From positions 1 through 23,939 of the IMG/VR virus record IMGVR_UViG_3300030520_000110: a DNA stretch of 23,939 nt; one strand, written 5' to 3'. How positions within the stretch are numbered: position 1 is the stretch's first letter; each line of letters starts with the position of its first letter. This stretch comes from a virus. Shown here in pieces: positions 1 to 22,840 of this stretch. The translations under genes were made by a program, and so were the position numbers. A model generated the notes under the pieces. That model ran no database searches. It worked only from the letters and a program-made list of their open reading frames with translations, and was not told the DNA's origin.

Positions 1-2074
1 CGGCGCCACCCTGCGCGATGACCCCGGCCTGATAGCCGCCGCTGCCAAGTGCAGCCGCATTATTGCAGCAGCCGTTGAACTCACTGCTTTCTATTGTACT
101 GTCGCCGAAGCTCGGGAAATTCGCGCCAGAAACGGCTGAACCGTACGTCCACGCGAGATAGCCCTTGAAATTGGAAACCGTAAAATTCAATGCATTAATC
201 ATATCCAACGGCGTATCCGCGCCGTAGCACATCACATCACGAACAACGCTTTGTGCATTGGCGTTGCTGCTGCCTGATGTTGCCTGAATGGTCAGGCATT
301 GCGTTCCCGGCCATGCTGCGCTGCCGTTCCATCCAGCGGCTCCGACCGGATAGAGAATCTCGAAGTTGCTAGCCTTGATGGCATAGTTCGAGGTGCAGGT
401 AAGCGCGTTGGCAGAGGCGACCGAAATAATAACCGATCCCTTCCCAGTGAGGTTAGCAAGCCCCTGGACTGCGTAACCGCCCCCAGCGGCCAACGCCCCG
501 CCATCGCCCTGATAACCCGCACCATCAATGCGTAGCGGCCCGGTACAGGTAAGTCCGCTGCTGATTGGATAGCTACCGGCCGGCAGAAATGCATACCCGT
601 TCGTGGCCGCAGTCAGCCAGTTTTGAAGTGCCGTCGTATCGTCATGAATGACATAGGATGAGGTGACGGCATTGCCGGCGCTCGCCGCCAGCGTCAGCGA
701 CGTGGAGCCTCCACCCGAAGAAACCGTCGTGACCAGCCAGTCCGGCAACGCGCTGGCGATCGGACAGGAAGACGGAATCCAGTCCGGGGGCGTCCAGGAT
801 TCGACACCCATGTCGTTATAAGCGGTTTGCGTGACGACTGCGATCGGCACCAGCGAGCCGGATTTATTACCGCAGACCAGATAAGCCGAAGGCGCGGTTC
901 CGCTGACAGGAGCGGTCCAAGCCAACTGATTAAAGTTCGTGCTGCTCAGCGTAGCAAAGCCAGTCGTGGTAGAAACCGCCGTGATGGTCGCACCGATCCC
1001 ACCGGCCGAATCCAACGATGCAATCGTATATTGATAGCTGGTTGAACCCGACGTACCGGCTTGTGTAATAGCCAGCGCAGTTGGCGGGTTGATGGCAAAG
1101 GAAGCCCCGGCATGATTGACGCGGATGCCTTGGCCATTGACGAAATCCTTAGCCGCACCCAGCACTAGCGTGGCGGATGAACCGGAGATCGTACCGGTCG
1201 TATTCTGGACCGAACCTGAGGTAGTTGCGGCCGGCAATGTCATCACCGAACTTGTGATAACAATACTAGATCCGGAGGCTGAAACCGTATTGCCGGGACC
1301 TCCAACGATAGATGGATTTCCTGTCAGGCCGTTTAGCGTCGCCACGCCCGCCGTCGCTGACGATGCAATCTGCCCGGGCGTTACATATTTGATCGATCCT
1401 GCCGCATTATCGTACAGCGGGATTTTATCATTCGTGGCATCCGGAGCCCCGCGCGCCGTCAATCCCTGGATGGTGAAATCAGTCGGCGCTACACTCGCTG
1501 TCGCGGTTGGATTGCCCTTGAAGGTCGCCGCCCCGACCAGAGCCAGATTGGCATTCGGAAGCAATCCAGTTACAGCGGTCGCCAGATTGACTTGGTTATA
1601 GGTGCCATCGCCACGAAAGAAAGTCGTGGTGTTGTTGGGAAACGCCGGCATTGCCCCAGGCAGAGACGATGTGACCTGATTGATCAGTGCCGTCAATTGC
1701 GAGTTGGTGTACTCTCCGATCTTACCTGCATTATCATATACCACACGCCCCGATGTGCCGCCCGTGATCGCCGTATTCCCAACCTGGATATTGAGAGCTG
1801 AAGGCGCGACCCCGCAATCCTGTAGCAACCCGGTAGTTCCATTGAAGCAAGCAAGATTGCCAGCCACCACAGGAGCGGTCGGCATAATCGAATTGATGAT
1901 ATTGTCGGAGATCGTCCGCGTGTTAAGCGGAAGAATCTGGAAATTCATATTGTCTGGGAAATTTGCGCTGACCTGTGCGTTCAACTGTACAGCGGTATAA
2001 GGTGCCTGCGCATGGCTATACCCAGTCATGGCGCATAGCAGTGCGACCGCCGCGATGATGCGTCGTGAGATCAT
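1..2074 (-). CDS. Tailspike-like protein with pectate-lyase fold and Sec signal peptide, 3' end outside window
   Basis: This open frame runs from an ATG at 2074 to the left edge: 691 codons with no stop seen, so the C-terminus is missing. Residues 1-22 (MISRRIIAAVALLCAMTGYS, then HA|QAP) look like a signal peptide. Residues 24-60 resemble the fibre-type start AQLNAQVxANFPDN. A linker follows with FFRGDGTY at 152-159 and TFKGNPTATAS-type repeats common in tail proteins. Residues about 335-422 look fibronectin-III-like. From D478-D479 the pattern DDTTALQNWL, FLPAGSYPISSGL and LRIDGAG is the classic start of a pectate-lyase-type right-handed beta-helix. The expected role is host polysaccharide binding or cleavage at the virion surface. 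It follows the fibre gene after 17 bases. The catalytic residues and trimer tip would lie outside the window. Fold confidence is good; the enzyme activity is inferred. Confidence 0.85.
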   Translation of the reverse strand, partial: MISRRIIAAVALLCAMTGYSHAQAPYTAVQLNAQVSANFPDNMNFQILPLNTRTISDNIINSIMPTAPVVAGNLACFNGTTGLLQDCGVAPSALNIQVGNTAITGGTSGRVVYDNAGKIGEYTNSQLTALINQVTSSLPGAMPAFPNNTTTFFRGDGTYNQVNLATAVTGLLPNANLALVGAATFKGNPTATASVAPTDFTIQGLTARGAPDATNDKIPLYDNAAGSIKYVTPGQIASSATAGVATLNGLTGNPSIVGGPGNTVSASGSSIVITSSVMTLPAATTSGSVQNTTGTISGSSATLVLGAAKDFVNGQGIRVNHAGASFAINPPTALAITQAGTSGSTSYQYTIASLDSAGGIGATITAVSTTTGFATLSSTNFNQLAWTAPVSGTAPSAYLVCGNKSGSLVPIAVVTQTAYNDMGVESWTPPDWIPSSCPIASALPDWLVTTVSSGGGSTSLTLAASAGNAVTSSYVIHDDTTALQNWLTAATNGYAFLPAGSYPISSGLTCTGPLRIDGAGYQGDGGALAAGGGYAVQGLANLTGKGSVIISVASANALTCTSNYAIKASNFEILYPVGAAGWNGSAAWPGTQCLTIQATSGSSNANAQSVVRDVMCYGADTPLDMINALNFTVSNFKGYLAWTYGSAVSGANFPSFGDSTIESSEFNGCCNNAAALGSGGYQAGVIAQGGA

Positions 2075-2091
2075 TTCAAATTGTTCCGGAA

Positions 2092-3987
2092 TTATCCGCG
2101 GTACTGCGCGGTCAGGAGCATCTGGTTGCTGCCAAAATAGGAGACGTTATTTGTGGTGACGCCGCCGAAGGCAGGATTTTCAAGAGGGTAGATTGTCGTG
2201 ATGCCGAGAGCCGGGGGAAAAATGCACTTCGATTTCAGGCTGCCCCCTGATAGGGCGCTGCTCGCAGATCCCGGATTGAACGTCATTGCTCCCGCTGCAC
2301 AGAACGAAGCAGGAGCCGGCGATGACGTATTGCTGTTGATGCCAATGCTGATCGCAGCCGAAACCGTCGCCGAGCTTAAGGCGGCAAACGTCGCGTTCTG
2401 GCTGAAATCGAGATCGACTACTTGTTCCGGCAAGCCCGTGAACGTGGTAATGACATTGTTGGTGTTTCCATTGTTGGAAACGATCCATCGATTGCCGCCG
2501 CCATCGGTCCAGCTTCCGGTGGAATCCTGCTCCTGCTGGATAATGTTCTGTTGATTGTAGGCGTTCCAGATGCCGAACTTGCGGTTTTGTCCGACCGTTC
2601 GATAAGCCGAGACCTGCCCCGCCGTTGAATCAATCGAGAGAGATCCGACATAAGTGCATTGATTGGCCGGGATGGTATAAGACGATAGCCCGTTATAGCC
2701 GACGATCGAAACCGAATTGACCCAGATCCCTTGCAACCGCGTGAGCTGCGCGGTACCAGCTCCCGTTCCCCGGCTCCCCGACCCCGCTGTTGGGACGGAC
2801 CAAGCTGGACCCGTAACTAGCGTCGGAACTCCGTTGTTGGAGAATACACAGGAGTCCTGAATGGCTGAAGCAGCGCTTCCGGCACTTGTCAGCGTCGCCG
2901 TCAATTCCGAGAATGTAATACCTTTGAACGCCGACCCGTTCCAGATCGGAATCTGATTGCCGTTATAGGGCGAATAAAAGATCGTGGCGACGCCAACCAC
3001 GTCACCAGTCTGCACCACATCTCCGGAGGCTTGCCCCACCAGATTGAGATAACCTTGAGGTGGCGCGAGCCCGGATGATGTGCCGCCGCTGCCCGAGGTT
3101 GATTCTGCCGGATTAACCAGATGAAATTCGCTGTTTGTAGAATCATAAACGATGAGCGGCTGATTGAAGGCATCGATCTCGCCTCCTGATAAGGCTGCTG
3201 GACCAGAAGTTGTATCTACTACGATCGGAAGCAGCGCACCTCCAGAAACTTGTACTGTTGCGGGTCCGGTATTGGAAGCAATAGCCCGAAACTGGATTGC
3301 TGCGCCGTCCTGCAATGCGAATGACGTATCGGTGATCTGGATAGCGTTGCCAGTGCCAGTAGCTAGGCCAGCCCAGAATATCCCCTGTGGAGAGGTCGAA
3401 GCCGTGAGTTTCGTGTATACTGTGTTCCCAAGGCTATCCTGCACCACCATGAGGTAGATGCCGGCACCATAAACGACCGCACAGCCGTTTTGATCGAGCG
3501 GGACGGGGTTCTGGTTGAGGGTGACTTCCCCGGCATCCTGCCATGTCTGCTTATAGGTCTGGGTATTCGGGATGTAGAACCCAACTGACCCGCCAGCCAG
3601 CGACGAATTGATCGAGGTAGAGGCCACCGGGATCAAAAGACCGCTTCCAGTGCCGCCTATTGAGGCTGCAGGGGCGCTTAAAACGTCTCCGACGACGTAC
3701 TGAATGCCGGGATTGAGGATTATGACGGCGGTGACAATCCCTCCTGAAACTGTTATATTCGCAGTCGCACCGGTCCCGGATCCGCCCGTTAAAGCGACCC
3801 CGCCATAGGTGCCATTTGTGTAGGAACTGCCGCCCGTGATCGAGCCGAGAAGCCCGACCATACCGTTGATTCCAGCCGTGGCTTGGAAGCACGTTTCTCC
3901 CGGAGGCAATATCGTGGCCTGCCCGAAGGCCTGCACACACGACAAGGCGACCGCAAAGGCTGCGGCGATGGCGGTTTTGAATTTCAT
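2092..3987 (-). CDS. Tail fibre or appendage protein with signal peptide and virion-attachment-like domain
   Basis: A 631-residue protein. Residues 1-22 (MKFKTAIAAAFAVALSCVQA, FG|Q) form a typical Sec signal peptide. Residues 50-120 are a Gly/Ser/Thr beta module (YTNGTYGG, GTGATANITVSGG, VGDVLSA, GGTGSG) seen repeatedly in phage appendage proteins. Residues 138-195 (FYIPNTQT, TWQDA, LNQNPVPLDQNGCA, GIYLMVVQDSLGNTV) match the arrangement of N-terminal virion-attachment domains in podophage spikes and fibres. Residues 225-292 (IQFRAIASNTGPATVQVSG, LIVYDSTNSEFHLVNP) are another common tail-protein beta domain. The C-terminal half is Ser/Gly/Asn-rich and not recognised. No enzyme motif was seen. 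It is the first gene after the plus-strand ORF and precedes the tailspike. A signal peptide in front of a virion-attachment domain is odd, because phage tails normally assemble in the cytoplasm. Only a weak ribosome site precedes the ATG. Confidence 0.8.
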   Translation of the reverse strand: MKFKTAIAAAFAVALSCVQAFGQATILPPGETCFQATAGINGMVGLLGSITGGSSYTNGTYGGVALTGGSGTGATANITVSGGIVTAVIILNPGIQYVVGDVLSAPAASIGGTGSGLLIPVASTSINSSLAGGSVGFYIPNTQTYKQTWQDAGEVTLNQNPVPLDQNGCAVVYGAGIYLMVVQDSLGNTVYTKLTASTSPQGIFWAGLATGTGNAIQITDTSFALQDGAAIQFRAIASNTGPATVQVSGGALLPIVVDTTSGPAALSGGEIDAFNQPLIVYDSTNSEFHLVNPAESTSGSGGTSSGLAPPQGYLNLVGQASGDVVQTGDVVGVATIFYSPYNGNQIPIWNGSAFKGITFSELTATLTSAGSAASAIQDSCVFSNNGVPTLVTGPAWSVPTAGSGSRGTGAGTAQLTRLQGIWVNSVSIVGYNGLSSYTIPANQCTYVGSLSIDSTAGQVSAYRTVGQNRKFGIWNAYNQQNIIQQEQDSTGSWTDGGGNRWIVSNNGNTNNVITTFTGLPEQVVDLDFSQNATFAALSSATVSAAISIGINSNTSSPAPASFCAAGAMTFNPGSASSALSGGSLKSKCIFPPALGITTIYPLENPAFGGVTTNNVSYFGSNQMLLTAQYRG

Positions 3988-4006
3988 TTAAGGGAATTCC
4001 GATTAG

Positions 4007-4315
4007 ATGAGAGAGCGCCTACTAACGAAACGCGGCAGACTTATTCTTCCCGTTACTGGGATCGGTTTTGCCATCCTCATCTGGGCTAGATTGAATGGTT
4101 TCGATTCTGGCCCCAAGGCGCTCATCATCATTTTCTTGACGAGCGTGCTGGGCGGCATCGTTCAATTCATTGCTGGTCGCGTCGAGGGCCAAGAAGAGCA
4201 TTCCGCGTCCCTAGAGATACGGGAAACGTCGAAGCCGTCCCCACCCGCGCAAGTCGGTTATGAAGGGCGGCGCCTCTTGACTGTTCGTCCATCAAATCCT
4301 GAACAAGAGCATTGA
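4007..4315 (+). CDS. Putative two-helix membrane protein on the opposite strand (possible moron)
   Basis: A 102-residue ORF on the plus strand, the only plausible gene in that direction. It starts with a basic stretch (MRERLLTKRGR) and has two hydrophobic segments, at about residues 12-29 (LILPVTGIGFAILIWARL) and 37-57 (ALIIIFLTSVLGGIVQFIAG). A polar tail follows. Bases 3988-4166 contain no better minus-strand gene, which favours this ORF, but its last 149 bases run antisense to the end of the ejection-protein gene. An AAGGG lies 12 bases before the ATG, which is far for a ribosome site. The gap to the divergent fibre start is only 19 bases, so its promoter would have to sit within the fibre gene. 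It could be a small holin-like or superinfection-exclusion protein carried as a moron, or a chance ORF. Function unknown. Confidence 0.42.
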   Translation: MRERLLTKRGRLILPVTGIGFAILIWARLNGFDSGPKALIIIFLTSVLGGIVQFIAGRVEGQEEHSASLEIRETSKPSPPAQVGYEGRRLLTVRPSNPEQEH

Positions 4316-6254
4316 AGTTTTTGTCACCCATCTTGCGGGTTAGAAGGGGTGCAATTTGCTGGTAGGCGTCCGCGTATCTGGCAGATCGCGCCCCCTCCAT
4401 GATGGTGTGAGGGCTCATCCACTCGGGAATGAAAGAAGTCGGCTTAGTCAGGTTGAGGTTTGAGAAATATCCCATTTCCCCGGGAGCGGGCGTCAGTGCG
4501 TTGACGCGCTCTTTCTTGGGCGTCGTCTGGCTTCCCCCAATAACATTCTGAACCTGATTTTTTCCCTTAACTTCCGCTTCCAAATCATCGATTAGGCGAC
4601 CAGACCGCTTATCACCGAACAGCATCTCTAGCTTGTCACGATTTGACCGCGCCAAGAGGGTATTGCGAGCCGTCGTGTCGCCACGAACGCTTAACTCGAG
4701 CATGTCTTGGATGGCCTTACGCGCGCCCTGAACACGGGCTGCCAGCTCTGGGCCGGAAAGCTGGTTCAGTTCATGGGCCAACTCTTCCTTGTCGGTTGAG
4801 CGGCTGAACGTTTTCTTACCTTCCTGGATTTGGTGAAGCAACTCTGAAGGCTCTGCGTATGTTTCGCGCGCCTGACGGTAGACCTGTCCAGCCGGCGTCT
4901 TGTCGATGGCTGAAAGCATGTCAGATTTCAAATTTAGCAGCTCGCGCGCCAAATCCTTATCTGGCTTTGTCTTGTCGAGTGCGTCCCCGATTCTGCGATC
5001 CAACCCGCGCTTTACGTAATCCCACGTTTCTGCAGTCGGGAACGCCTTCTGAGGACCTCCCGTGAAGAAGTTACGGTTGATCGGGCGTCCCGATATGCCG
5101 GAAAGCTCTTCCGCCTTGTCGAAGGCGCCAGAAGATTCAAGGCGCGGTATCAATGCCTTTATCTCATTGGTCGGATGAATTTGCATCGTCCGGAATTGAT
5201 TATAGAGCGGATCGGCGCCTGTTGCCCTAGCCTGCTCAATCGAGCGAGTTAGATTCGCCATGTTGGTATAAGGCACCGTATTCTTATTGAGTGACTGCTC
5301 AATGCGATCAGCCTGCCCCGCCGCGCGGATGCGATACGCTTCTCTAATCGCTTCTTTGTGAGGACCGGGAATATCAGCGAGGCCTCCAGCAATATCAGTC
5401 GTTGCGTTATTCACGTCCGCCAACATGCCTGCTGGTCCGTAGGTCTTTTTCGCTTGCATAATCGATGCGGGTGTTTCGCCTTCAACTGCGTTAACGAGCA
5501 TGTTTCGGCCAACCGAATTGACTCCAGCAAGTTCGCCTGTGGTCCGCGGCAGCCAGCTTGCGATTGCATCACCAGCCGCCGTGATGCCGTGCCCGGCCAT
5601 CGGCCCTAATGCGCCGCCAGCCATCGATAGAGGCACCGGGCCAAATAGACCCTGATTAAGCGGGTTATTGCCCTGCACAAGCTGATTTCCGGTCTCTAGC
5701 GCCCCCATCCCGGCAGCGCCTTGATAAACGCGAGCACCGAGAGAATTTCCAACCATACCCATCATGCGGGCACCAACTGGCGTCTCAGACATGGGGCCGA
5801 GTAGCATCGCATTTCCAGTCACGTCCGCGACCGTGGATGCTATCGGGTGCTGTTCCCCGTATTGCTGATTTCTCGTATCTTGGGCTTGCAGATTGTTCGC
5901 ATATCGATCGGCAAACGAGGTATTGGCGTATTGAGGATCCTTGCCTAGTCCTTGTCGGATCAGATCGGTTACAGGCTGAATCGCCGCGCCAGTTGCCGCG
6001 GCTGCTTTATCAGCCAAAGGCCCAAGGATTGGAACGCTACTTGCCATCCGGTCATTGAAACCGGACATAGCCTCCTCAGCCTTCGATACAGGACTATCAA
6101 GCTGCATGATAACTTTGGTTGGCTTGCCGTCTCGTTTTACGATTTCGGGCGCGCGGTCATATTTATTGAAAATGTCGTCAGGCGTGAACGATCCATCAGC
6201 AACAGGAGCGGCCTGACTATCTCGGGAATATCGATCGAGAATATCATCGCTCAT
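4167..6254 (-). CDS. Large ejection / internal virion protein, P22 gp16-position
   Basis: A 695-residue protein, last of the ejection-protein group and close in size to P22 gp16 (about 609). The N-terminus carries two copies of an acidic-aromatic motif, DDILDRYSRD (3-12) and DDIFNKYDRA (26-35). Residues 145-235 are rich in Gly, Ala and Met (LLGPMSETPVGARMMGMVGN, PLSMAGGALGPMAGHG) and could insert into or cross a membrane. The rest is mainly charged helix, including GPAGMLADVN and a predicted helical region at about 300-560, of the kind seen in large internal proteins of other podophages. No lysozyme or transglycosylase motif was found. The start overlaps the previous stop as ATGA (6251-6254). 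Its 3' end is overlapped antisense by the plus-strand ORF. Assignment rests on size, position and composition, not on clear similarity to gp16. Confidence 0.7.
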   Translation of the reverse strand: MSDDILDRYSRDSQAAPVADGSFTPDDIFNKYDRAPEIVKRDGKPTKVIMQLDSPVSKAEEAMSGFNDRMASSVPILGPLADKAAAATGAAIQPVTDLIRQGLGKDPQYANTSFADRYANNLQAQDTRNQQYGEQHPIASTVADVTGNAMLLGPMSETPVGARMMGMVGNSLGARVYQGAAGMGALETGNQLVQGNNPLNQGLFGPVPLSMAGGALGPMAGHGITAAGDAIASWLPRTTGELAGVNSVGRNMLVNAVEGETPASIMQAKKTYGPAGMLADVNNATTDIAGGLADIPGPHKEAIREAYRIRAAGQADRIEQSLNKNTVPYTNMANLTRSIEQARATGADPLYNQFRTMQIHPTNEIKALIPRLESSGAFDKAEELSGISGRPINRNFFTGGPQKAFPTAETWDYVKRGLDRRIGDALDKTKPDKDLARELLNLKSDMLSAIDKTPAGQVYRQARETYAEPSELLHQIQEGKKTFSRSTDKEELAHELNQLSGPELAARVQGARKAIQDMLELSVRGDTTARNTLLARSNRDKLEMLFGDKRSGRLIDDLEAEVKGKNQVQNVIGGSQTTPKKERVNALTPAPGEMGYFSNLNLTKPTSFIPEWMSPHTIMEGARSARYADAYQQIAPLLTRKMGDKNFNALVQDLMDEQSRGAALHNRLARVGTASTFPVSLGTRNALLGPRRDQQ

Positions 6255-7555
6255 TGTGAGTGAACATCTCCGAGCAACCCGTGACGATCAGCGATATTCA
6301 TGCCATTGCGTATTTTGTTAAGTTCCGAAGGAGGCAGCGTCTCTTTGAGCTTTTTCTGCTGGTCTTTGCTCATCAAATCATAAACGAATGCGCGAGGATC
6401 TTGCTTGGTACCCCAATCCACCATGAATTTATTGAAGGTGGACGGGTCAGCTTCTCCGCGATCGACCTTCGAATTGAATTCAAGGACGCCAGCCTGTCGC
6501 ATCCGCTCGACACCGAGCGCCACCTTGGAAAGCTCAAGTGCCGACAGTTTGTCCATATGAACGTTCGGATTGGACGTAACCGCCGTAGCGAGACCATCGT
6601 TCGTTTTTGGACCGAGTGTCGCCGCCGCCTGCGCCGAATACTGGTTGAAATATTTTTTGAGTTCGTTGAAATCCTTGATCTGATATGGATCAATTCCAGC
6701 GATCTTGCCTGCACCAAGACTGACGGCAGTAGATTTGATGTCGTTCCACCGCTCGGATGTTGGTCCGATATCGGTCTCTTTCATATTCTCCAGAATCGGG
6801 ATGGCCTGTCGGAGCGGGTTGACGCGCTGTCCATAATTTCCTGCAGCTTCGCTAGCTGCGGAATAAGCCTCGCCCGAGCGTGCGCTTGTTGCCGCTGCTG
6901 CGGGAGACAGGCCAGTCGGCGACGTGCCACCGTAGTTCGCAGAGCCGAGTGTGCTCTGTTGCGGAGCGCCCCCAGGTGAAGGAGGGGCCGTAACGCGCTG
7001 CGCAATTCCACTTGATCCGATCGCCATGTTCTGAATAGTTCGCGCCCACTCATGACGCGCAGCCTGATCCTTCGGGGCGTTGCCAACCACCGACAGAATC
7101 GTCGCGGTAGGCACGCCGCTGTTGCGCGCCGATGTCACCGCGAAGTTGCGCAAATCTTCATCCGAGATATTTGGCTTATCGGCGAGCGATCCGATGCCAT
7201 CCAGAAGCACCTTATTCTGCCCGGCCTGTAGGCCAAACATCTTCTGGGCGTTATCGATCTGCTTACCTTGGCGATCGAGAGCGCCAGCAGACGCCTCGCC
7301 CGCCATAAACCCGGCGTCCGGATTATCCTTGATGCCTTGCATTAGCTTTTGGGTATCGATCGAACCATCGTCGCCGATGGCGCCTTGATAGGCTTGTCCA
7401 ATTGCCTTTCGCGCATTGAACTGCTGCTGAAAGAGAGCGTTGGCATTAAGTTGCCCAACCATCCCGATTACTCTAGCCGGGTCGCCAGACAGTGCATTGC
7501 TGCCGCCCTGCGATGGCGAAAACGACGGGTAGGTCGGGGCGGGAACGTCGGGCAT
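6251..7555 (-). CDS. Internal virion / ejection protein, P22 gp20-position
   Basis: A 434-residue protein, similar in length to P22 gp20 (471) and in the equivalent place, between the gp7-like and gp16-like genes. The N-terminus is Pro/Ser/Gln-rich (PDVPAPTYPSFSPSQGGSN). A helical region follows with many Gln and Ala residues. Residues about 190-235 are a Pro/Gly/Ser/Ala linker. The C-terminal third is charged and helical (DFNELKKYFNQYSAQAAATL, ALELSKVALGVERMRQAGVL). There is no signal peptide, transmembrane helix or enzyme motif. The start overlaps the previous stop as ATGA (7555), and its own stop overlaps the next start in the same way, so it is probably translated in fixed ratio with both neighbours. 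A role in forming the DNA-ejection conduit is inferred from position and composition. Confidence 0.65.
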   Translation of the reverse strand: MPDVPAPTYPSFSPSQGGSNALSGDPARVIGMVGQLNANALFQQQFNARKAIGQAYQGAIGDDGSIDTQKLMQGIKDNPDAGFMAGEASAGALDRQGKQIDNAQKMFGLQAGQNKVLLDGIGSLADKPNISDEDLRNFAVTSARNSGVPTATILSVVGNAPKDQAARHEWARTIQNMAIGSSGIAQRVTAPPSPGGAPQQSTLGSANYGGTSPTGLSPAAAATSARSGEAYSAASEAAGNYGQRVNPLRQAIPILENMKETDIGPTSERWNDIKSTAVSLGAGKIAGIDPYQIKDFNELKKYFNQYSAQAAATLGPKTNDGLATAVTSNPNVHMDKLSALELSKVALGVERMRQAGVLEFNSKVDRGEADPSTFNKFMVDWGTKQDPRAFVYDLMSKDQQKKLKETLPPSELNKIRNGMNIADRHGLLGDVHSQ

Positions 7556-8085
7556 CAGCGCGCCATCCCTGAGTAGTTCGCGCTCAACGCCTTCATATGC
7601 TCCATGTGCTCATCTGGATTCGTGTTGTGGTGCTGTGCGGCCTCAGTAGCCCAATCGCCAGAGCCCAAATTGGTATTGCGGTGATGCTCAACGATGCCTT
7701 GTTCTGCTTGCACCGTTTGCGCCAGCATGGTCTGCATCCATTTGCGTTGTTGCAAGGGGTCGCTGGGTACTTGAGCCAATTGCTGCACGGCTTGCGGAGC
7801 AGATAAAATTCGCTCCGAGACAAGCTTGGTCACGCCGTCGATGATCTTGGATTTTAAATCGGACCGCCCGGCCGCAGGATCTTTCAACAGCACTGTCAGC
7901 TCACCCTTGATCGCGTCGAAGTGGCGCAGCGCAGCCACAGTCTGTTCGTGCGTCGGGGGCGGCGGTGGGGCTGCTGGAGGCGCTGCGCCACTGGCCGGCG
8001 GGCCGCTCGGCTGCAAACCGTTGGCCTGCGCGCCGGGCTGCGCCTGTGCAGGCGGCGGCATGCCGCTATCAAGTGCGTTCGGCAT
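7555..8085 (-). CDS. Proline-rich hypothetical virion protein in the ejection cluster
   Basis: A 176-residue protein not recognised as a known family. Residues 9-45 are very rich in Pro, Ala and Gln, including a run of prolines around 40-44. Residues 46-135 are predicted helical (HEQTVAALRHFDAIKGELTV, WMQTMLAQTVQAEQG). The C-terminus is His/Asn-rich (HHRNTN, HHNTNPDEHMEHM). It has no signal peptide or membrane helix. ATGA overlaps at both ends tie it to the gp7-like and gp20-like genes, so an internal virion or assembly role is likely. P22 has no gene in exactly this place, so this may be an extra ejection component or a chaperone for one. The reverse strand also reads open here, but that is a shadow of the Pro/Ala codons. 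Confidence 0.7.
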   Translation of the reverse strand: MPNALDSGMPPPAQAQPGAQANGLQPSGPPASGAAPPAAPPPPPTHEQTVAALRHFDAIKGELTVLLKDPAAGRSDLKSKIIDGVTKLVSERILSAPQAVQQLAQVPSDPLQQRKWMQTMLAQTVQAEQGIVEHHRNTNLGSGDWATEAAQHHNTNPDEHMEHMKALSANYSGMAR

Positions 8086-8828: not shown

Positions 8829-9305
8829 TCAAGCATCCTCCGACATAAGAAGAATGCTATTTCCATTATGCCCAAGCTTTACGAGAGATATGGCCGCCTG
8901 TGAAACGCCGTAACGCTCCGCAAGATCGACCTGACGTTCCGTCGAAGCGCGTATTTCCAGCACTTCTGACGGTTTTAACTTGCAATCTTTCTTTCTGCGA
9001 TTTTTCGACCAAGAATCTATTTGGTTCTCTTTATTTGTTCCGATCGATAGATGCTTGGGATTAACGCAAGAGGGATTATCACATGAATGAAGAGTAACCA
9101 TCCCTTCAGGGACCGTTTCACCTCTATAAATCAGAAGGGATGCGCGATGTGCAAACCACGTCTTCTTACCCCAACTAAAACATCCATAGCCCTTTGGACT
9201 CAATCTGGCATTCCAATGCCAGCATTCGTCATCGCCACCTTTGACAAAGAAGTGCTCAAACTTCTCTTTTATTGGCAGTCCTTTTTTTGCACGGTGTTTT
9301 GTCAT
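8829..9305 (-). CDS. Free-standing HNH homing endonuclease
   Basis: A 158-residue protein of the HNH_3 type. Visible landmarks are CWHW (28-31), GYG (39-41), AHR (52-54), H73 with C75, CNxxCVNPxHL-like residues ending at N82-P83-H85-L86, and N94. The region around residues 124-145 (ERQVDLAERYGVSQAAISLV) looks like a helix-turn-helix that could bind DNA. Such enzymes cut an allele lacking them and spread by repair; they have no virion role. It sits between the GNAT-like and gp7-like genes, overlapping the first by ATGA and abutting the second. Its DNA is visibly more AT-rich than its neighbours: two 60-base lines count 22 and 27 GC. That supports recent arrival. All HNH residues appear present, so it is probably active. 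Confidence 0.92.
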   Translation of the reverse strand: MTKHRAKKGLPIKEKFEHFFVKGGDDECWHWNARLSPKGYGCFSWGKKTWFAHRASLLIYRGETVPEGMVTLHSCDNPSCVNPKHLSIGTNKENQIDSWSKNRRKKDCKLKPSEVLEIRASTERQVDLAERYGVSQAAISLVKLGHNGNSILLMSEDA

Positions 9306-10057
9306 CTGACTTGGATCACCTTAAATGAACTATCTTCGACAAGAAGCAGAGCCGACCCGATGTCAATTAACAGGGGAGATCTGCTCACCATAGATATGGT
9401 GGCGTATCCAGAAAATCTGGCAAAGCGATTGTAGAGAACGACCGCTTTTTCTGGCTGGCCTGCATAGATCATCTCAGCACAGGCCCCGACGTAGCGATCA
9501 TGGCATTCCTCGTCGGGATGTTTTTCATGGAGTGCTTTATGGCGTGCGAACTCTTCGTCAAGCCGTTGGTGAAAGGCGCGACCGCTTGCGACCAAACACG
9601 ATGCGCTCCGCACCCAATCCTCGTATTTCAGCGACCAATAGGACATATCGGCCGGCTCTGGCTCGATTGGCCATGACCCCTTGCGGGTGAATTCCAGTGT
9701 GGCTCCCACCATCTTGCAGAACGCTTCAGCAGCCTTGTTGAAGGCTGGAACGCGGGTCTGCAAAATCATGCAGTCGGTATGGGTGAACATCCAGCGATAG
9801 GCTTCGCGTGAAGCACGGATAGCATGTCGGCCTCGGTGATTTTCCAGAAACGAGGTATGGACATCATAGATTCCCGGCTCAGCCTGCGCGAAGATGATGC
9901 CGCCACCTTCCGACACTAGCAGCACATTGAGCGGGTTCGAGACGATCGCCGACATATCGATATCTGGCTTCATGCCCGGCAGTTTTATCGCCTCAAAAAC
10001 AGAACTGTCATTCAATATTGGGTTAATCTCTGACGCATCAAACGATCGGTGGATCAT
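9302..10057 (-). CDS. GNAT-like acetyltransferase-fold protein in the P22 gp14 position
   Basis: A 251-residue protein. I choose the ATG at 10057 because it overlaps the gp10-like stop as ATGA; an ATG further upstream (10123) would overlap by 70 bases. The first 130 residues resemble a GNAT fold: VLLVSEGGGIIFAQAEPGIY, then FLENHRGRHAIRASREAYRW, a motif-A-like stretch, then FCKMVGATLEFTRKGSW. The C-terminal part (CHDRYVGACAEMIYAGQPEK, VLYNRFARFSGYATISMVSR, SPLLIDIG) is a second module seen in phage proteins. In P22 the gene after gp10 and the gp26 needle is gp14, a small head-assembly protein, and GNAT-like proteins are often found in that position. Enzymatic activity is unproven: the acetyl-CoA loop is imperfect, so a structural role is equally possible. 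Confidence 0.72.
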   Translation of the reverse strand: MIHRSFDASEINPILNDSSVFEAIKLPGMKPDIDMSAIVSNPLNVLLVSEGGGIIFAQAEPGIYDVHTSFLENHRGRHAIRASREAYRWMFTHTDCMILQTRVPAFNKAAEAFCKMVGATLEFTRKGSWPIEPEPADMSYWSLKYEDWVRSASCLVASGRAFHQRLDEEFARHKALHEKHPDEECHDRYVGACAEMIYAGQPEKAVVLYNRFARFSGYATISMVSRSPLLIDIGSALLLVEDSSFKVIQVR

Positions 10058-11658
10058 GCGGCATGCACGATTGGAGGGTCGAGGAACGCTTGATTTAAAC
10101 CCGTCGTCATCCCTGCGACCCAACTAAGCTCAAACACAAAATCTCTGCCTTGTCCTAACCCGCGCCACCGCAACATCGATCTATAATGTCCAGCACTCGC
10201 TAATTGTTTGGTGCGGTAATTTCCGAACGTCTCGCCGCCATCTTTTGACACACGTAGCGAGACCTGCGGAGGGAGTGCGACCGCTTGCGGCCCCCAAGAT
10301 AGATTTTTGCCTAACGTCGGAACGCCGCTCGATACCTCGGTCCATCCTGATCCTGGAACAGGCGTTACCGTGATGCCGACCGGCGACTGCGTACCAAATC
10401 CAGAACTGAATGCTCCAGAAATTTGCGGGACTTCTGCCGATCCTGCCAATGTCCCAGTTGCCATATCAGCCGTGAAACACGGTAGCGTAACCATGTGCAT
10501 TTCATTGACGACATGCGGGAACGATCGAATGCAGGAAATCGGCTGCCCGTTATCCGTCGCGTAGTTCGGGTCGAGTGCGTAAATCTGGCCGGTCTGCCAG
10601 TCCATGCCGACGTTGGTATCGTAGGCGAAAGCATGGAACGCAACACGCTCTCGGTTTAACTTACCGTTCTTGTCGGTATAGGCTCGCTCATGCCATTGAC
10701 TAGTAGCACGATCAAATCCCCACGACTTATTAGCCGAGGGGAAGTGGATCACAACGAAGCTATGGCCACCCTGCTGGTAGGTGTAGCAGATCGCATCGGT
10801 CAAAGTGGGATAGGTCAGCCACTCGTCTTCCAGCGCGTAGGTCGAGACGCGCTTGGCCCCATAACCCTCGATCATCAGGAAGATAGCGCGTCCATCCTTA
10901 TCCTGCGATAGAAAGAATGCGTTAACATCGATCGTGCAGACTGAATAAGGGGCGATTGTCCCGTGTGGAACGATCTGGCCAAATACTTCCTCGAAAGGAA
11001 AGATCGGATCTCCCGCGTCGAACCACGGCTCTGATGTCATTGTTCCGATCAGCCAAAGCGTGCGCTGGCATGCGATCAGTGTTTGAATCGGATCGCCAAA
11101 TGTTCCTTTCGAAGCCTGGTCGAGCGCGTTGAACGCTACCTGCTCGGATAGCGACACATACCAGTTGTTAGTCGCTATCTGATTGAAGCTAAAAACCGTA
11201 TCGAAGAACTGTGTCCGCGTCGCGCCAGTAAACAATCCCGTCGTATCGACGATCTGCGTCATCTGACGCGAGGTCATGTTGATCTGGTAGCCTAGCGGGC
11301 TGTTATCGACGAGGACGATTTCATTACCGTTCGACTGGCCGTTATCGTCCATCGATACCGGAGTGGACTGGTTTTGAATCTGTCCTAGCTCGGTGAACTG
11401 CCAATTCGGGTTGATGTAATAAACGTTGGGACCAACCACCCCGTATAGATCACCATTGGAAACTCGAAATACTCCGCGGCCCCTCCCCGGCACCGGAGGA
11501 GCGCCGAGAGGTCTATTTCCCGGTCTCACATAATGGGTGAATGGCGATTCCGGATCTGCCTCTTCCGGATTATTCTCGCAAAACACATTCACCGAGCGCT
11601 GCGCATTGGCAATTAGTGACCGATTTTGATATGCTCCGGAATTGAGCGGGATTTTCAT
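10054..11658 (-). CDS. Tail hub / packaged-DNA stabilisation protein, P22 gp10-like
   Basis: A 534-residue protein, somewhat longer than P22 gp10 (472). It begins with MKIPLNSGAYQNRSLIANAQ and RSVNVFCENNPEEADPE, then a loop with TxYxRPGNRPLG. This matches the gp10 family opening, where a short strand is followed by RSVNxxxExN and a PTPG-type turn. The body is beta-rich with repeated aromatic blades (LYGVVGPNVYYI, NNWYVSLS, LWLIGTMTSEPWFDAG, WGFDRATSQWHERAY, YALDPNYATDNGQPI), consistent with a beta-propeller hub. In P22 gp10 binds gp4 below the portal and holds the tailspikes. Here it is separated from the gp4-like gene by the four-gene A-B-A-B cassette. It overlaps both neighbours by ATGA. 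Confidence 0.85.
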   Translation of the reverse strand: MKIPLNSGAYQNRSLIANAQRSVNVFCENNPEEADPESPFTHYVRPGNRPLGAPPVPGRGRGVFRVSNGDLYGVVGPNVYYINPNWQFTELGQIQNQSTPVSMDDNGQSNGNEIVLVDNSPLGYQINMTSRQMTQIVDTTGLFTGATRTQFFDTVFSFNQIATNNWYVSLSEQVAFNALDQASKGTFGDPIQTLIACQRTLWLIGTMTSEPWFDAGDPIFPFEEVFGQIVPHGTIAPYSVCTIDVNAFFLSQDKDGRAIFLMIEGYGAKRVSTYALEDEWLTYPTLTDAICYTYQQGGHSFVVIHFPSANKSWGFDRATSQWHERAYTDKNGKLNRERVAFHAFAYDTNVGMDWQTGQIYALDPNYATDNGQPISCIRSFPHVVNEMHMVTLPCFTADMATGTLAGSAEVPQISGAFSSGFGTQSPVGITVTPVPGSGWTEVSSGVPTLGKNLSWGPQAVALPPQVSLRVSKDGGETFGNYRTKQLASAGHYRSMLRWRGLGQGRDFVFELSWVAGMTTGLNQAFLDPPIVHAA

Positions 11659-12080
11659 GAGCGGATTTGCGTCGCCGAGAAGAAGCCAAACGTGATGCGA
11701 GATCCAGGCCCTAGCGAATAGGGCTGGTTCAAACCGAGGGCATCGATCTGCAGGCCGGGCGGTGGATAGACTTTAAGAGCGTTGGCACCCTGATTGGCCA
11801 CAAGCTGCGACTGCCCAACGCCATATGCCGATAGCAATACGCCCGTACCAGCGACAACAGTATCGACTTCATTCCATTGATCACTGAGTTGCAGCGCCGT
11901 GGCCTGATTGGTGCCGGTCGCTTCTAGACCATCGCCTACCGTTGCAGTAGCTTGGTTCGTGTTGGCTTGGTTGATGACGCTGAGCAGATATTGATAACCA
12001 CTGCTCGACAGATTCCCCGTAGCCGGGTCTACAAATGGTTCCTGCGGGGGCGGAAGGTTGTTGCCGGTCGTCTGGGCCAT
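11655..12080 (-). CDS. Cassette protein B2: GTNQAT-domain protein without signal peptide
   Basis: A 141-residue protein. The N-terminus (NNLPPPQEPFVDPATGNLSS, then YQYLLSVINQ) matches the PfvDpxTGxxxxxxxxfLxxLxxx opening of many small phage structural proteins. Residues 51-137 are a beta-rich domain starting GLEATGTNQATALQLSD and containing EVDTV, a TGVLL strand, ANALKVYPPPG and a Phe-rich end (ITFGFF). The same domain, with GTNQAT at identical residue positions, occurs in the protein at 12283-12729, so the two are paralogs. It overlaps the A2 gene by ATGA at 12080 and the gp10-like gene by ATGA at 11655. No signal peptide is present. A tail-associated knob is possible; the function is unknown. 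Confidence 0.8.
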   Translation of the reverse strand: MAQTTGNNLPPPQEPFVDPATGNLSSSGYQYLLSVINQANTNQATATVGDGLEATGTNQATALQLSDQWNEVDTVVAGTGVLLSAYGVGQSQLVANQGANALKVYPPPGLQIDALGLNQPYSLGPGSRITFGFFSATQIRS

Positions 12081-12283
12081 CAGGCAACGTCTTCCGGATT
12101 TTCCCAGATGATCGACAGATGTCGTTTCGAGGCCTCAGCCAACGCTTCCCGGGATGTCATATGCGCGTTTCGCGGCGCGTTTTCCGATTTTGGCTTGAGC
12201 GACGTATAAAATACTAAGCCATCCTTCCAGCCGTAGATTGCCTTGCGAACCTTCCGAAGGTGGGAACTACGGCTGATTGGCAT
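12080..12283 (-). CDS. Cassette protein A2: small YGW protein
   Basis: A 67-residue basic protein (MPISRSSHLRKVRKAIYGWK...). It is not recognised, but it resembles the 64-residue A1 protein at 12732-12926: both have YGW (17-19 here), a basic/Pro-rich middle, a short helix rich in Ala/Glu, and a final hydrophobic-Trp-x-(x)-Pro motif (SIIWENP here). The distance from the YGW tryptophan to the last tryptophan is 41 residues here and 42 in A1. It starts with TAATG overlap to B1 and ends with ATGA overlap to B2, which argues strongly that it is translated. No signal peptide or membrane helix is present. It may be a chaperone or partner of the B protein encoded next to it. Confidence 0.75.
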   Translation of the reverse strand: MPISRSSHLRKVRKAIYGWKDGLVFYTSLKPKSENAPRNAHMTSREALAEASKRHLSIIWENPEDVA

Positions 12284-12729
12284 TAGTTCGAATACCAGAC
12301 GCCTGTTTTGCCGCTCGTAAAGCCCTGTGCCGTATTCGCATTCAGCGTATAGCTGGTCGTGTTGTTGATTTTATCCTGCGCTCCCAGCGAATTATTATTG
12401 ATCGCAGGATATATTGTGATGTTGTTAGCGGTATTGTTGATCACGGTAATCGTCATGCCGGCAAGGGCAAACGGCAATGCCGCGCCAGTGCTCGCGCTTG
12501 AGGTGTCAACCTCAAGGAACGAAACCAGATCTGCAAGCTGAAGAGAAGTCGCCTGGTTAGTTCCGATCGCGGTCAGGCCATTCTGGAAGGTAAAATTATG
12601 GCCCTGGGTGATTCCGTTGATGAAATCACCATCCATCTCCTGGAAACCAGTATGAGGGATGATGCCGATCGCGGCATAGCCCATCGAAGCAAACAAAAGC
12701 ATGAACCCAGCAATGAGAAGCCGACGCAT
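12283..12729 (-). CDS. Cassette protein B1: GTNQAT-domain protein with Sec signal peptide
   Basis: A 148-residue protein starting at 12729. The ATG at 12777 also reads open but would overlap the A1 gene by 46 bases. At 12729 the protein begins with a clear signal peptide (MRRLLIAGFMLLFASMGYA|A), and AAGGA lies 8 bases upstream. After cleavage the mature protein is a beta-rich domain: GLTAIGTNQATSLQLAD (51-67), FLEVDTSS, ALPFALAGMTITVINN, ANNITIYPAINN and a C-terminal TGVWYSN. It is a paralog of B2 (11655-12080), with GTNQAT at the same residue numbers, but B2 has a different, non-secreted N-terminus. It is separated from A1 by two bases and overlaps A2 by TAATG. Export to the periplasm is predicted. 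Its role is unknown. Confidence 0.8.
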   Translation of the reverse strand: MRRLLIAGFMLLFASMGYAAIGIIPHTGFQEMDGDFINGITQGHNFTFQNGLTAIGTNQATSLQLADLVSFLEVDTSSASTGAALPFALAGMTITVINNTANNITIYPAINNNSLGAQDKINNTTSYTLNANTAQGFTSGKTGVWYSN

Positions 12730-12731
12730 CG

Positions 12732-12926
12732 TTATAATCCTTTCTCGGATTGGTCTTTTGTGAGTTTTGGAATCCACATGATGTCGGCGCGCTGGCGCTT
12801 AAGCATGTCGTGCACTTCGGCCATTGTCTCTAGGCATACTGCCGGACGAATGGGAGAATCTGGTGGGTAACGGCTGACTAGATAGCCGCGGTGATTGTGC
12901 CAGCCATAGAGCAGTCTACGGGCCAT
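12732..12926 (-). CDS. Cassette protein A1: small YGW protein
   Basis: A 64-residue basic protein (MARRLLYGWHNHRGYLVSRY...). YGW is at residues 7-9, then PPDSPIRPAV, a helical stretch (ETMAEVHDMLKRQRAD) and IMWIP at 49-53. It matches A2 (12080-12283) in motif order and spacing. Its start overlaps the stop of the gp4-like gene as TAATG at 12926-12928, and the next gene begins two bases after its stop. No signal peptide or membrane helix is present. The family is not recognised. The repeated pairing of an A gene followed by a B gene suggests that A and B proteins act together. Confidence 0.75.
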   Translation of the reverse strand: MARRLLYGWHNHRGYLVSRYPPDSPIRPAVCLETMAEVHDMLKRQRADIMWIPKLTKDQSEKGL

Positions 12927-15274: not shown

Positions 15275-16525
15275 TTACAGGCTGTCGAGGGTTTGAACGG
15301 CCCATTCGCCGCGGGGCCAGAAATACCCGAAGAGCACATCGATACGATCGATTGGCTGGTCGGTACCAGGTTCGTAGCAAACCAAGCTTCGCAGCGAGCA
15401 CCGGTCAAACTCATGGCGTTCCGCTTCGATCACGCCCTTGCCGCTCGGAGGCATCCACAACGGCGCGATCACGAGCGACACCGCATCCCGCTGGAACGCC
15501 AAGGATTGCCGGTAGGTAACGCTCGCGTTTGCAAACGGTGTCACGGTGGCATTGTTAGCCGGCGTAGCGGTCACCGTCATATAAGCCTGCATGGTATAGG
15601 GCAGGCCGGCATAAGGGACTTGCGAGGCCGGCGGGATCAGAGCCGGATAGATCGGGATTGACGTGCCACCGTTTGGAACGTTCGCCGTCACGGTGAATTG
15701 CCGCGGGGTTCCGGTGGATGCTCCGGTGGTTCGGTTGACGGCGAGAACGCCGGCCACCGTGATGATGTCGCCCTGGTTCAAGGTTCCAGTGAGAGCCGAA
15801 ATCGTAAGTGCCGTGCCGGACTGGTTGGCGCCGTTGATCGTTGCCGAAGTCGCTGAGCCAGTCGTGTGCTTGATGACGGTCTGGTCTCGGAACATATCGA
15901 AACCAAGCGCATTTTTCATCATGCCGGTTTTGTATTGTGCCGAGATCGTAGCGGCCGGGTTGAACTGGCCGTTGAGCGTTCCAACCAACTTGGCGTCGCT
16001 ATGGGGATCGTTCGCAAGCTTCCATGTCTCATCCATGGGGGCTTCATTGTCGGATAGCAGCGCGCCGGCATTCAGCACAGGAGTTTGGCTGATACCCAGA
16101 ATATTGTTGCTGGAATCGACATTGGCCGACGCATTGCAGACGGCCCCCTGGGAAGAGAACATGAGCGTCTGAGCGACGTTGCCAGCGAGCTTATTCAGAC
16201 GAGGCCGGATAAAGCGTTCGGCATAGTCCTCGATCGACAGCGTGCGCTCTGCGGTCGTGAACGCAATGTCGATATGGCGCTGGGTTGCCACGGTCAAAAC
16301 GACCTGCTGTTCAATCGAATCCTGCAGCGAAAGTCCGGGGCCGTCAGTCACTCCGTAGTCATTCGGAATGCGGACGCGGAGTTGAGCGCCGATCTTGGCG
16401 CCTTCAACGCCGAAACGGTCATCGTAATCACGATTGACCGACATCATGAACAGGTTGGAGTTGAGAAATAACGGGACGGAGTACCGAGTGATCATGCTCG
16501 AAGTCAGAAGATTATTGCCGGCCAT
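15275..16525 (-). CDS. Major coat protein, P22 gp5-like
   Basis: A 416-residue protein close to P22 gp5 (430). The opening MAGNNLLTSSMITRYSVPLF, then FMMSVNRDYDDRF, EGAKIGAQLRVRIPNDYGV closely follows the P22 coat pattern (NNLLTxxMxTR, VNRxYDDxF, AKIGDxLxIRxPNxY). Residues about 222-345 (SGTALTISALTGTLNQGDII, IPIYPALIPPASQ) are beta-rich and correspond to the accessory I-domain inserted in P22-type HK97 folds. It forms the icosahedral shell on the scaffold. AGGAG is 9 bases before the ATG. A 297-base structured leader lies upstream, unlike the tight spacing elsewhere, which suggests separate control of the most abundant virion protein. Confidence 0.93.
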   Translation of the reverse strand: MAGNNLLTSSMITRYSVPLFLNSNLFMMSVNRDYDDRFGVEGAKIGAQLRVRIPNDYGVTDGPGLSLQDSIEQQVVLTVATQRHIDIAFTTAERTLSIEDYAERFIRPRLNKLAGNVAQTLMFSSQGAVCNASANVDSSNNILGISQTPVLNAGALLSDNEAPMDETWKLANDPHSDAKLVGTLNGQFNPAATISAQYKTGMMKNALGFDMFRDQTVIKHTTGSATSATINGANQSGTALTISALTGTLNQGDIITVAGVLAVNRTTGASTGTPRQFTVTANVPNGGTSIPIYPALIPPASQVPYAGLPYTMQAYMTVTATPANNATVTPFANASVTYRQSLAFQRDAVSLVIAPLWMPPSGKGVIEAERHEFDRCSLRSLVCYEPGTDQPIDRIDVLFGYFWPRGEWAVQTLDSL

Positions 16526-18176: not shown

Positions 18177-18430
18177 GCGGACCAATTTCCTTGCTCTGCC
18201 GTTGGCCTAAATCTCTCTATCGGAGTAATGCGGCTGCCGGGAAAAGTCAGTTCCATGTGGTGAAAGCCGGAGCTGCGAATTTCGCCGCCATCGGTGAACC
18301 ACGTGGTCTCTATAGTGCCATCAGGATGCACATCCATTATAGTCATCGTCGGGCCGCCGCTATTCAGCCGCGCCAACATTCCCTTTTTGATGGTGCCCTT
18401 GATCTCGTCAAGCCTAGGATCATCGCTCAT
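18173..18430 (-). CDS. DUF2158-like small protein
   Basis: An 85-residue protein. The core pattern, with LNSGGPTMTI (22-31), then MDVHPDGTIETTWFTDGG (32-49), matches DUF2158 proteins, which read like GDxVxLKSGGPxMTVxxxxxxGxVxCxWF. The end (HHMELTFPGSRITPIERFRP) fits as well. Members are small beta-barrel-like proteins of unknown function, mostly bacterial. It is tied by ATGA overlaps to the portal (18427-18430) and to the next gene (18173-18176), so it is made in step with portal. A role in portal or DNA handling is only a guess. Confidence 0.75.
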   Translation of the reverse strand: MSDDPRLDEIKGTIKKGMLARLNSGGPTMTIMDVHPDGTIETTWFTDGGEIRSSGFHHMELTFPGSRITPIERFRPTAEQGNWSA

Positions 18431-20607: not shown

Positions 20608-20711
20608 TAGTCGCGCGTCCAAGACGCATCGCGGAACGGCCTATTAAATATCCACCTCCATTCGATCGGCCAATATTTTATCGCATATCGCAGACGCTGC
20701 CAAAAATTCAT
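20607..20711 (-). CDS. 34-residue aromatic micro-gene between terminase and portal
   Basis: A short ORF (MNFWQRLRYAIKYWPIEWRW, then IFNRPFRDASWTRD) with five tryptophans and many basic residues. Its ATG overlaps the terminase stop as ATGA (20710-20711 shared region) and its TAA overlaps the portal ATG as TAATG. It fills the 103-base space between the two genes exactly, which argues that it is translated. The first half could form an amphipathic helix that binds a membrane or a protein groove. It is too short for a family call. It may only pass ribosomes from terminase to portal, or be a small packaging cofactor. Confidence that it is translated is moderate. Confidence 0.55.
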   Translation of the reverse strand: MNFWQRLRYAIKYWPIEWRWIFNRPFRDASWTRD

Positions 20712-22132: not shown

Positions 22133-22840
22133 TCAGAGCGTCCGATACCACACGCCAGTATTGCTGGCACCAGCCTGATAGAGCCAGCAGTTCTTGCCCA
22201 GGGTAGCCGTGCCGGCAGTACCGACCGCGGTCATGACAGGAATGCTGGTCGGCGTGACACCAGTGATAGTGGGGGTGTTGCCGAAGGAGTTGGTGCCAGC
22301 CGCAACGGCAGACAGGGTGAGGATACCGCTTCCAGCATCCGACAAGCAAAAGGTCTGGTTGGTGATCGGATTCGGCGGCAGTTTGAAGCTGGTAAAGGTC
22401 GCGGTGCCGGCGCCGGAATAGATCAGATTCGATATGCCATCCGAGGCCTGAACCAACGCAGTCGTGCCGGTGGTCGAAAATACAGTCGTGCCACCATATC
22501 CGTTAGCCAGCAGCGTGGACGGAATAACGACGGTTTGAGGAGGGGCGCTACCGGCCAATCCGGTGTCCATCGGAATGAGCTCGGTTCCCGTAAGGGCCGG
22601 CGGACCTGCAGGCACGGTCTGAGCACAAAGCGAACCCGACGTGGCTTGACCCTGGCCTGTCGGATTGACGTTGTTGGTGTTGCCCTGGGCAGTGAACCCA
22701 CCAGCCCCCGAAACAGTCGAGGCGCAGAACGATGCGCCGCCGACAATGGGGTATATCGAATAGTTACCAGCCGCATATGCAGCCACAGAGCCTACCGTCA
22801 GAGCAACGGCAAGCAGCCCGGAAAAACGGGTTACTTTCAT
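22133..22840 (-). CDS. Secreted beta-rich protein of unknown function
   Basis: A 235-residue protein starting with a strong signal peptide (MKVTRFSGLLAVALTVGSVA, then AYA|AGN). AGGAG lies 7 bases before the ATG. The mature part is rich in Gly, Thr, Ser, Ala and Pro and likely all beta. Segments include IYPIVGGASFCASTVSG, GQGQATSGSLCAQTVPAG, TNQTFCLSDAGSGILTL and a C-terminal NCWLYQAGASNTGVWYRTL. Four cysteines (C38, C73, one in the TFC segment and one near the end) could form disulfides in the periplasm. The end TGVWY also closes B1 (12283-12729). It is placed just upstream of the terminase, unusual for a secreted protein. Possible roles are a surface-modifying, superinfection-blocking or virion-tip protein. 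The family is not recognised. Confidence 0.8.
   Translation of the reverse strand: MKVTRFSGLLAVALTVGSVAAYAAGNYSIYPIVGGASFCASTVSGAGGFTAQGNTNNVNPTGQGQATSGSLCAQTVPAGPPALTGTELIPMDTGLAGSAPPQTVVIPSTLLANGYGGTTVFSTTGTTALVQASDGISNLIYSGAGTATFTSFKLPPNPITNQTFCLSDAGSGILTLSAVAAGTNSFGNTPTITGVTPTSIPVMTAVGTAGTATLGKNCWLYQAGASNTGVWYRTL

Follow-up and report, generated by a model that had tools for sequence, protein, structure and literature searches.

The assembly of tailed phages is taught as a wholly cytoplasmic process, and the P22 tailspike starts at its docking domain. In filamentous phages the coat proteins pass the inner membrane before assembly, a route that relies on membrane-bound subunits and extrusion and involves no tailed capsid. 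Phage signal peptides (SPs) have been described for lysis proteins and for one esterase, interpreted as possibly assisting lysis (PMC10975493), and the literature searched, which included few subscription journals, held no report of SPs on phage tail fibres. The sequences analysed here suggest that in a lineage of P22-like phages the receptor-binding fibres and tailspikes probably leave the cytoplasm by the host Sec system and dock on the virion afterwards, at lysis.

The window (the whole stretch of DNA analysed, 23,939 bases) is an entire virus record that may or may not be a complete genome, and it carries a P22-type structural module on its minus strand, with the following genes.

18427 to 20622, minus strand: portal protein, P22-type (P22_portal, E 1.7e-110)
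15275 to 16525, minus strand: coat protein, P22-type (P22_CoatProtein, E 2.2e-28)
20711 to 22117, minus strand: terminase large subunit (match in the ORF scan of the window)
10054 to 11658, minus strand: head closure gene (Hc3-like), serving as the lineage marker (Hc3, E 3.5e-74)

A DNA-ejection-type gene is also part of the module. The sequence-only reading of this DNA had stated that P22-type tailspikes are not exported; the contrast stands, but the phage of the window, with its P22 portal and P22 coat, is itself P22-type and breaks the rule. Bacterial relatives were not found in genome contigs with either the fibre-family or the Hc3 scans, and plasmid searches with Hc3 returned weak Acinetobacter matches and nothing more. 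The gene at 4167-6254 (phrog_5880, unknown function) had no relative in viral contigs or phages in a single-protein scan. A small ORF (8829-9305, minus strand) with the Hc3-side genes on one flank and the ejection gene on the other resembles, by eye, an HNH homing endonuclease.

The tailspike gene at the left edge presented the features listed below, in which, as elsewhere in the text, a slash marks a predicted cleavage site.

2 to 2074, minus strand: tailspike ORF of 691 codons with an ATG start, open at the left edge (ORF list; weak PF12708 match)
2009 to 2074, minus strand: putative Sec SP of the tailspike, residues 1-22, SHA/Q, with an alternative cut after 24 (heuristic)
1889 to 1990, minus strand: N-terminal linker motif (LNAQVSANFPDN..ILPLNTR..), common to the exported spikes of relatives (alignment)
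2 to 643, minus strand: start of a pectate-lyase-like beta-helix, from residue 478 on, truncated (weak PF12708 match)

Its N-terminus, MISRRIIAAVALLCAMTGYSHA/QAPYT, combines a positive n-region, a hydrophobic h-region and an A-x-A-type site, and the heuristic places the cut at 22/23, with AQA/P at 24/25 as another possibility. The ORF and the heuristic confirmed the earlier description of a gene cut by the left edge with a Sec SP ending SHA/QAP, and DDTTALQNWL does start at residue 478, as had been claimed, with FLPAGSYPISSG starting at residue 496. The match to the pectate-lyase-like family PF12708 was weak in this truncated ORF (19.6 bits, E 0.00088, cut-off 27); the spike at the same place in a sister phage scored 48.1 bits (Pfam, E 1.6e-12), the E-value of the predicted exported, pectate-lyase-like spike of locus L006. 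Export of the tailspike, also proposed in the sequence-only reading, is supported as a prediction by SP conservation across relatives and by cysteine parity, and candidate docking partners for it are the tail hub and the SP-bearing fibre.

That reading did not mention the SPs of three further ORFs, the neighbouring fibre and two others in the window. The fibre lies where fibres usually do, after the ejection genes, and is organized as follows.

2092 to 3987, minus strand: tail fibre ORF P0002, 631 aa, with an SP, a head-binding-like domain, a shaft and a TNF-like tip (structure model)
3916 to 3987, minus strand: putative Sec SP of the fibre, MKFKTAIAAAFAVALSCVQAFGQA/T (heuristic)
3373 to 3915, minus strand: predicted virion-docking domain (P22 tailspike head-binding fold) with an inserted repeat; contains Cys33 and Cys169 (alignment, model)
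2656 to 2850, minus strand: stretch from Cys380 to Cys444, a pair confined to SP-bearing homologues (alignment)
2095 to 2553, minus strand: C-terminal TNF/C1q-like lectin-type tip, mature residues 455-607 (structure model)

SPs were called with a heuristic of our own that looks for n-, h- and c-regions and a small-x-small site, and these elements were found. Relatives were collected from public viral contigs, in which an Hc3 scan gave 9 loci, a wider scan 21 and a fibre-family alignment scan 63; used as a single query, P0002 found no relative in viral contigs. Every fibre ORF with the 'LLPxGxxCF' version of the docking domain carried an SP, amounting to 23 distinct SPs, and none was present in 37 homologues of the fibre C-terminal domain that have other N-termini. 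All but one of the family SPs pass the heuristic (22/23), while that of L043 (MKKLIIALLLILATDVDA/A) was called by hand because it has Asp at −2. When N-termini were shuffled, those of the fibre family passed in 119 of 4600 cases and those of all ORFs in 3 of 769. The letters of the SPs diverge (median pairwise identity 36%), and the layout is retained, with a small-x-small site in all 23. Related docking domains without an SP occur in other P22-like phages (Pseudomonas phage PAE2 and contigs L018, L019 and L027), and the start of the mature SP-bearing protein aligns with the SP-less Met (A/AQLLPNGKQCF as compared with MASILPNGKTQF). In each of 17 related contigs searched, of up to 63 kb, we found one docking-domain fibre, extra rows being fragments of that one ORF; if it were secreted and never docked, those phages would therefore lack this fibre.

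A profile of the docking domain, built from 7 SP-bearing and 16 SP-less rows, matched Pan3 tailspike chains (E 1.1e-15) and the Pam1 'Tailspike head-binding domain' (E 8.3e-15), and queries made of SP-bearing members only gave no PDB sequence match. When the SP-bearing domain of L043 was modelled (pLDDT 79) and compared with known structures, the 14 best rows were tailspike or head-binding entries of Pan3, Pam1, Sf6 and P22 (Z 7.3-9.7), and unrelated rows began below them, at Z 6.1. Foldseek with the domain returned no row at E 0.001 or better, its first seven rows being phage tailspike or neck entries, and with the whole fibre it returned weak, mixed rows, so that a domain model was needed. 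Structure comparison of the window fibre model matched its docking domain to the Pan3 tail complex (Z 10.4, rmsd 1.7 over 79 residues), its middle part to a Pa193 tail fibre (Z 9.5) and its tip to TNF-like lectins (Z 11.5). Across SP-bearing fibres of different architectures, median identity was 57% in the docking domain as compared with 29% in the rest. Profile and structure comparison place the fibre family in the head-binding fold, and its portal, coat and Hc3 matches place it in a P22-type structural module, suggesting that the SP-bearing fibre is a virion-docking protein, as modelled here. Ordinary P22-type tailspikes and fibres are made in the cytoplasm and are not known to carry an export signal; since a Sec SP is predicted in spite of the head-binding fold, the fibre is a variant and not an ordinary P22-type member.

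An even cysteine count is what one expects of exported proteins in which all cysteines are paired in disulfide bonds, and a study predicting DsbA substrates reportedly counts even numbers of cysteines (PMC7678975). A list assembled by hand from complete large SP ORFs lying next to the fibre comprised 18 exported tailspikes with between 2 and 22 cysteines; all 18 counts were even, across 15 clusters. A systematic set, which differs from the hand list, was made to remove the choice behind it, and consisted of complete SP and SP-less ORFs of at least 300 aa from the plus strand of the loci, taken as a greedy ORF set. It contained 38 SP ORFs, 37 of them with cysteine, and the predicted mature part was even in 36 of the 37, the odd exception being L059 with nine cysteines; by cluster (first member), 18 of 18 were even (p 3.8e-6). 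Among the 195 SP-less ORFs, even counts were found in 60 of the 119 with cysteine and in 31 of 61 clusters, and SP-less fibres considered alone gave 21 of 35. Cysteine density was higher in SP clusters overall (median 1.83 vs 0.94 per 100 aa, p 0.0006), but the densities of SP-bearing and SP-less fibres hardly differ (0.85 and 0.74 per 100 aa), and so we regard density as a weak marker and parity as the signal.

At the level of single sites, the pair Cys380 and Cys444 was present in 13 of 14 SP-bearing homologues and in 0 of 37 SP-less ones, which mostly have an aromatic residue and Ala or Gly there; L046 has an SP and lacks the pair. This count sets aside duplicate rows and nine docking-domain ORFs that either lack the C-terminal domain or are truncated at a contig end (L055, L059, L062, L064, L069, L091, L093, L094 and L095), and it is independent of the scan pattern that contains Cys33. 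Counts of Cys33 and Cys169 were not used as a test because that pattern is one of the two used in the family scan. On the tree, the association of the Cys380/Cys444 pair with the SP represents one evolutionary event, the independent-pairs test having one pair, and the disulfide claim therefore rests on parity across clusters. In the N-terminal part of the spikes, a motif pair (CFPD..RxC) was present in 4 of 11, absent in 7 of 11 and never single.

To place export in the phage lineage, we used a tree of Hc3 with 44 rows, 21 from phages with an SP-bearing fibre, 17 with an SP-less fibre and six of unknown fibre state, which were kept and not counted; short, duplicate or far rows were left out (L006, L007, L008, L011, L022, L023, L028-L030, L038, L058, L069 and L077). 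In the starred clade of 22 rows, all 19 known states were SP-bearing, and the predicted SP trait follows this well-supported clade of P22-like phages. The tree as a whole needs two state changes, with L025 (SP) and L021 (docking fibre without SP) as sisters; L021 was scored SP-less by its docking fibre, though two other L021 ORFs have SPs, and L026 was scored SP-bearing by its spike. The docking domain of L025 has its own cysteine pair (YTCVPNTSC), so a second origin of export is possible. The spike also moves between phages: behind an SP-like start, L004 carries a stretch 54% identical to the spike of the window, and no Hc3 match was found in that locus. In L054, L083, L085 and L087 the fibre is SP-less and a spike-like ORF is still predicted to be exported, indicating that fibre and spike export can be uncoupled.

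The two remaining SP-bearing ORFs of the window are listed here, together with a neighbour of one of them.

12283 to 12777, minus strand: small structural-cassette ORF, its probable start being the ATG at codon 17, position 12729 (alignment with homologues)
12673 to 12729, minus strand: putative SP of this ORF, MRRLLIAGFMLLFASMGYA/A; SP-less homologues start at the mature position (heuristic, alignment)
22133 to 22840, minus strand: ORF before the terminase gene, with putative SP MKVTRFSGLLAVALTVGSVAAYA/A (heuristic)
11655 to 12080, minus strand: SP-less relative of the 12283-12777 product, serving as internal control (homology search)

The family of the 12283-12777 product carries an SP in the window, L006 and L007 and is SP-less in L008, L009 and L010, where the proteins begin with MPIG or MQIG at the mature position; it is a second family that repeats the pattern of the fibre docking domain. 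Among the matches of the 11655-12080 product, the sole SP row was the 12283-12777 product, and the two neighbours are related by 47% over about 60 residues, one with an SP and the other without.

SPs were also called on other ORFs in the modules of the relatives, some of them typical phage fibres and others enzymes. In L025, a fibre with an SP contains Peptidase_S74 (Pfam, E 6.5e-8; PHROG tail fibre, E 1.6e-9), and four consecutive SP ORFs, one with the S74 chaperone domain, lie at 3456-7980 between the coat side and Hc3. L005 has three consecutive large fibre-like ORFs at 1809-7245, each with an SP, and an SP ORF of this locus is a GDSL hydrolase. Phage ORFs in L033 (15631-16374), L039 (16582-17346), L040 (13589-14308) and L055 (14933-15655) have an SP followed by ADLPTKAP-like starts; we take them to resemble small outer-membrane proteins of Alphaproteobacteria, they had no Pfam match, and a plasmid search with the outer-membrane-like ORF of L055 gave no match. 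No Pfam match to a muralytic domain was found in the SP ORFs scanned. In L008, a Class 3 lipase (18901-19584; Pfam, E 2.5e-13) adjoins a lysozyme-like gene, both without an SP. Acetobacter phage phiAX1 (L032, LC644973) has an SP ORF whose product fits the entire GH66 glycoside hydrolase profile (Pfam, E 2.6e-84); it is annotated at 10493-12313, a start that is too late, an in-frame SP lying upstream of it. phiAX1 was described in work on phages that mitomycin induces in acetic acid bacteria; its host is Acetobacter sp. ATCC 21760, and a prediction in that work rated it incomplete (PMC8566455).

Several readings compete for these observations. Some of the starts are TTG, GTG or internal and the SP of L043 fails the heuristic, as would be the case if the SPs were products of chance or of wrongly annotated starts, but 23 distinct SPs on one family, the 119 of 4600 shuffled N-termini that pass, and cysteine parity, which is independent of the SP letters, count against such an artefact and make it extremely improbable. 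A hydrophobic N-terminus that stays uncleaved and anchors the protein in the membrane or the virion would suit the n- and h-regions equally, and retention as a virion anchor was one of the two fates offered in the sequence-only reading. We consider an anchor very unlikely, since each of the 23 family members has kept a small-x-small site just ahead of the docking domain despite SP divergence (36%), SP-less phages use the related domain without such a helix, and in the neighbouring fibre the P22-fold docking domain directly follows the conserved cleavage site, at the position of the start Met in SP-less relatives.

The exported proteins might instead remain outside the virion, as secreted or periplasmic enzymes or adhesins that clear polysaccharide or that block or mask receptors against superinfection. 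The presence of SPs would fit this, as would the GH66 hydrolase of phiAX1, the GDSL hydrolase of L005 and the precedent of Pantoea WceF, a tailspike-like enzyme with an export signal (PMC7949094), and the tailspike at 2-2074 could itself be a free enzyme or depolymerase, the other fate that had been offered. A conserved P22-type head-binding domain directly behind the fibre SP, in the sole such fibre found in each of 17 contigs and in a gene placed, as is usual for fibres, behind the ejection genes, argues against a non-virion role, which we judge unlikely. Exported fibres that act first in the envelope, by receptor masking or capsule trimming, and then dock at lysis would agree with all the evidence for export and docking and with the enzymatic domains on some exported spikes; we rate this double role as quite improbable.

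Our preferred reading is export followed by docking. On the predicted SPs and the cysteine counts, Sec export of fibres and spikes is very likely, and docking after export seems probable. Completed P22 heads accept spikes in vitro, so a late docking step is physically reasonable. In the build that we favour slightly, capsid and tail hub would be made in the cytoplasm and disulfide-bonded fibres and spikes in the periplasm, to be joined at lysis, and export may have arisen more than once, passing between phage types with spike genes. After Sec export, signal peptidase would cleave the SP and the mature fibres and spikes would trimerise and form disulfides by Dsb oxidation in the periplasm, while heads with short tails would be completed in the cytoplasm; holin and endolysin would then break the inner membrane, the two pools would meet, and fibres and spikes would dock as the last assembly step. 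If fibres are indeed exported first, this last step would depend on lysis and on the Sec and Dsb systems of the host, disulfides could harden the receptor-binding parts, and exported spikes could act on the envelope before lysis. An SP together with an even number of cysteines offers a simple marker for finding such phages, and it becomes possible to test directly at what site and stage fibres are attached to the virion.

Described systems share parts of this arrangement. Filamentous phage coat proteins are virion proteins sent through the inner membrane, as proposed here, and SAR endolysins carry N-terminal export signals too, but are lysis enzymes and not virion parts. gp40 of Xanthomonas phage PBR31 has an SP on an esterase resembling tail-associated hydrolases, and we found by portal match that PBR31 has a P22-like portal; gp40 is a single protein that its authors propose may assist lysis, and the passage describing it does not mention a docking domain (PMC10975493). 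The mosaic adhesive trimers (MAT) of Bdellovibrio are phage-fibre-like trimers, some with S74, that stand behind an SP and were shown on the cell surface (PMC10769870). They are adhesins of a bacterial predator, unlike phage genes with a head-binding domain, and the S74 ORF with an SP in L025 lies in a phage module and not in a bacterial genome. Pantoea WceF is, as here, a tailspike-like beta-helix trimer with an export signal, but its signal is of the Tat type, its gene belongs to a bacterial exopolysaccharide locus and it has no virion (PMC7949094); the fibre at 2092-3987 has a docking domain, which a protein of the WceF type lacks. The tailspikes of P22 gp9, Sf6, Pam1 and Pan3 resemble the window fibre in the head-binding fold and share the setting of a P22-type portal and coat, and a beta-helix like theirs is expected in the spike. 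These tailspikes begin at the docking domain, whereas here a predicted SP precedes it and the mature proteins have putatively paired cysteines.
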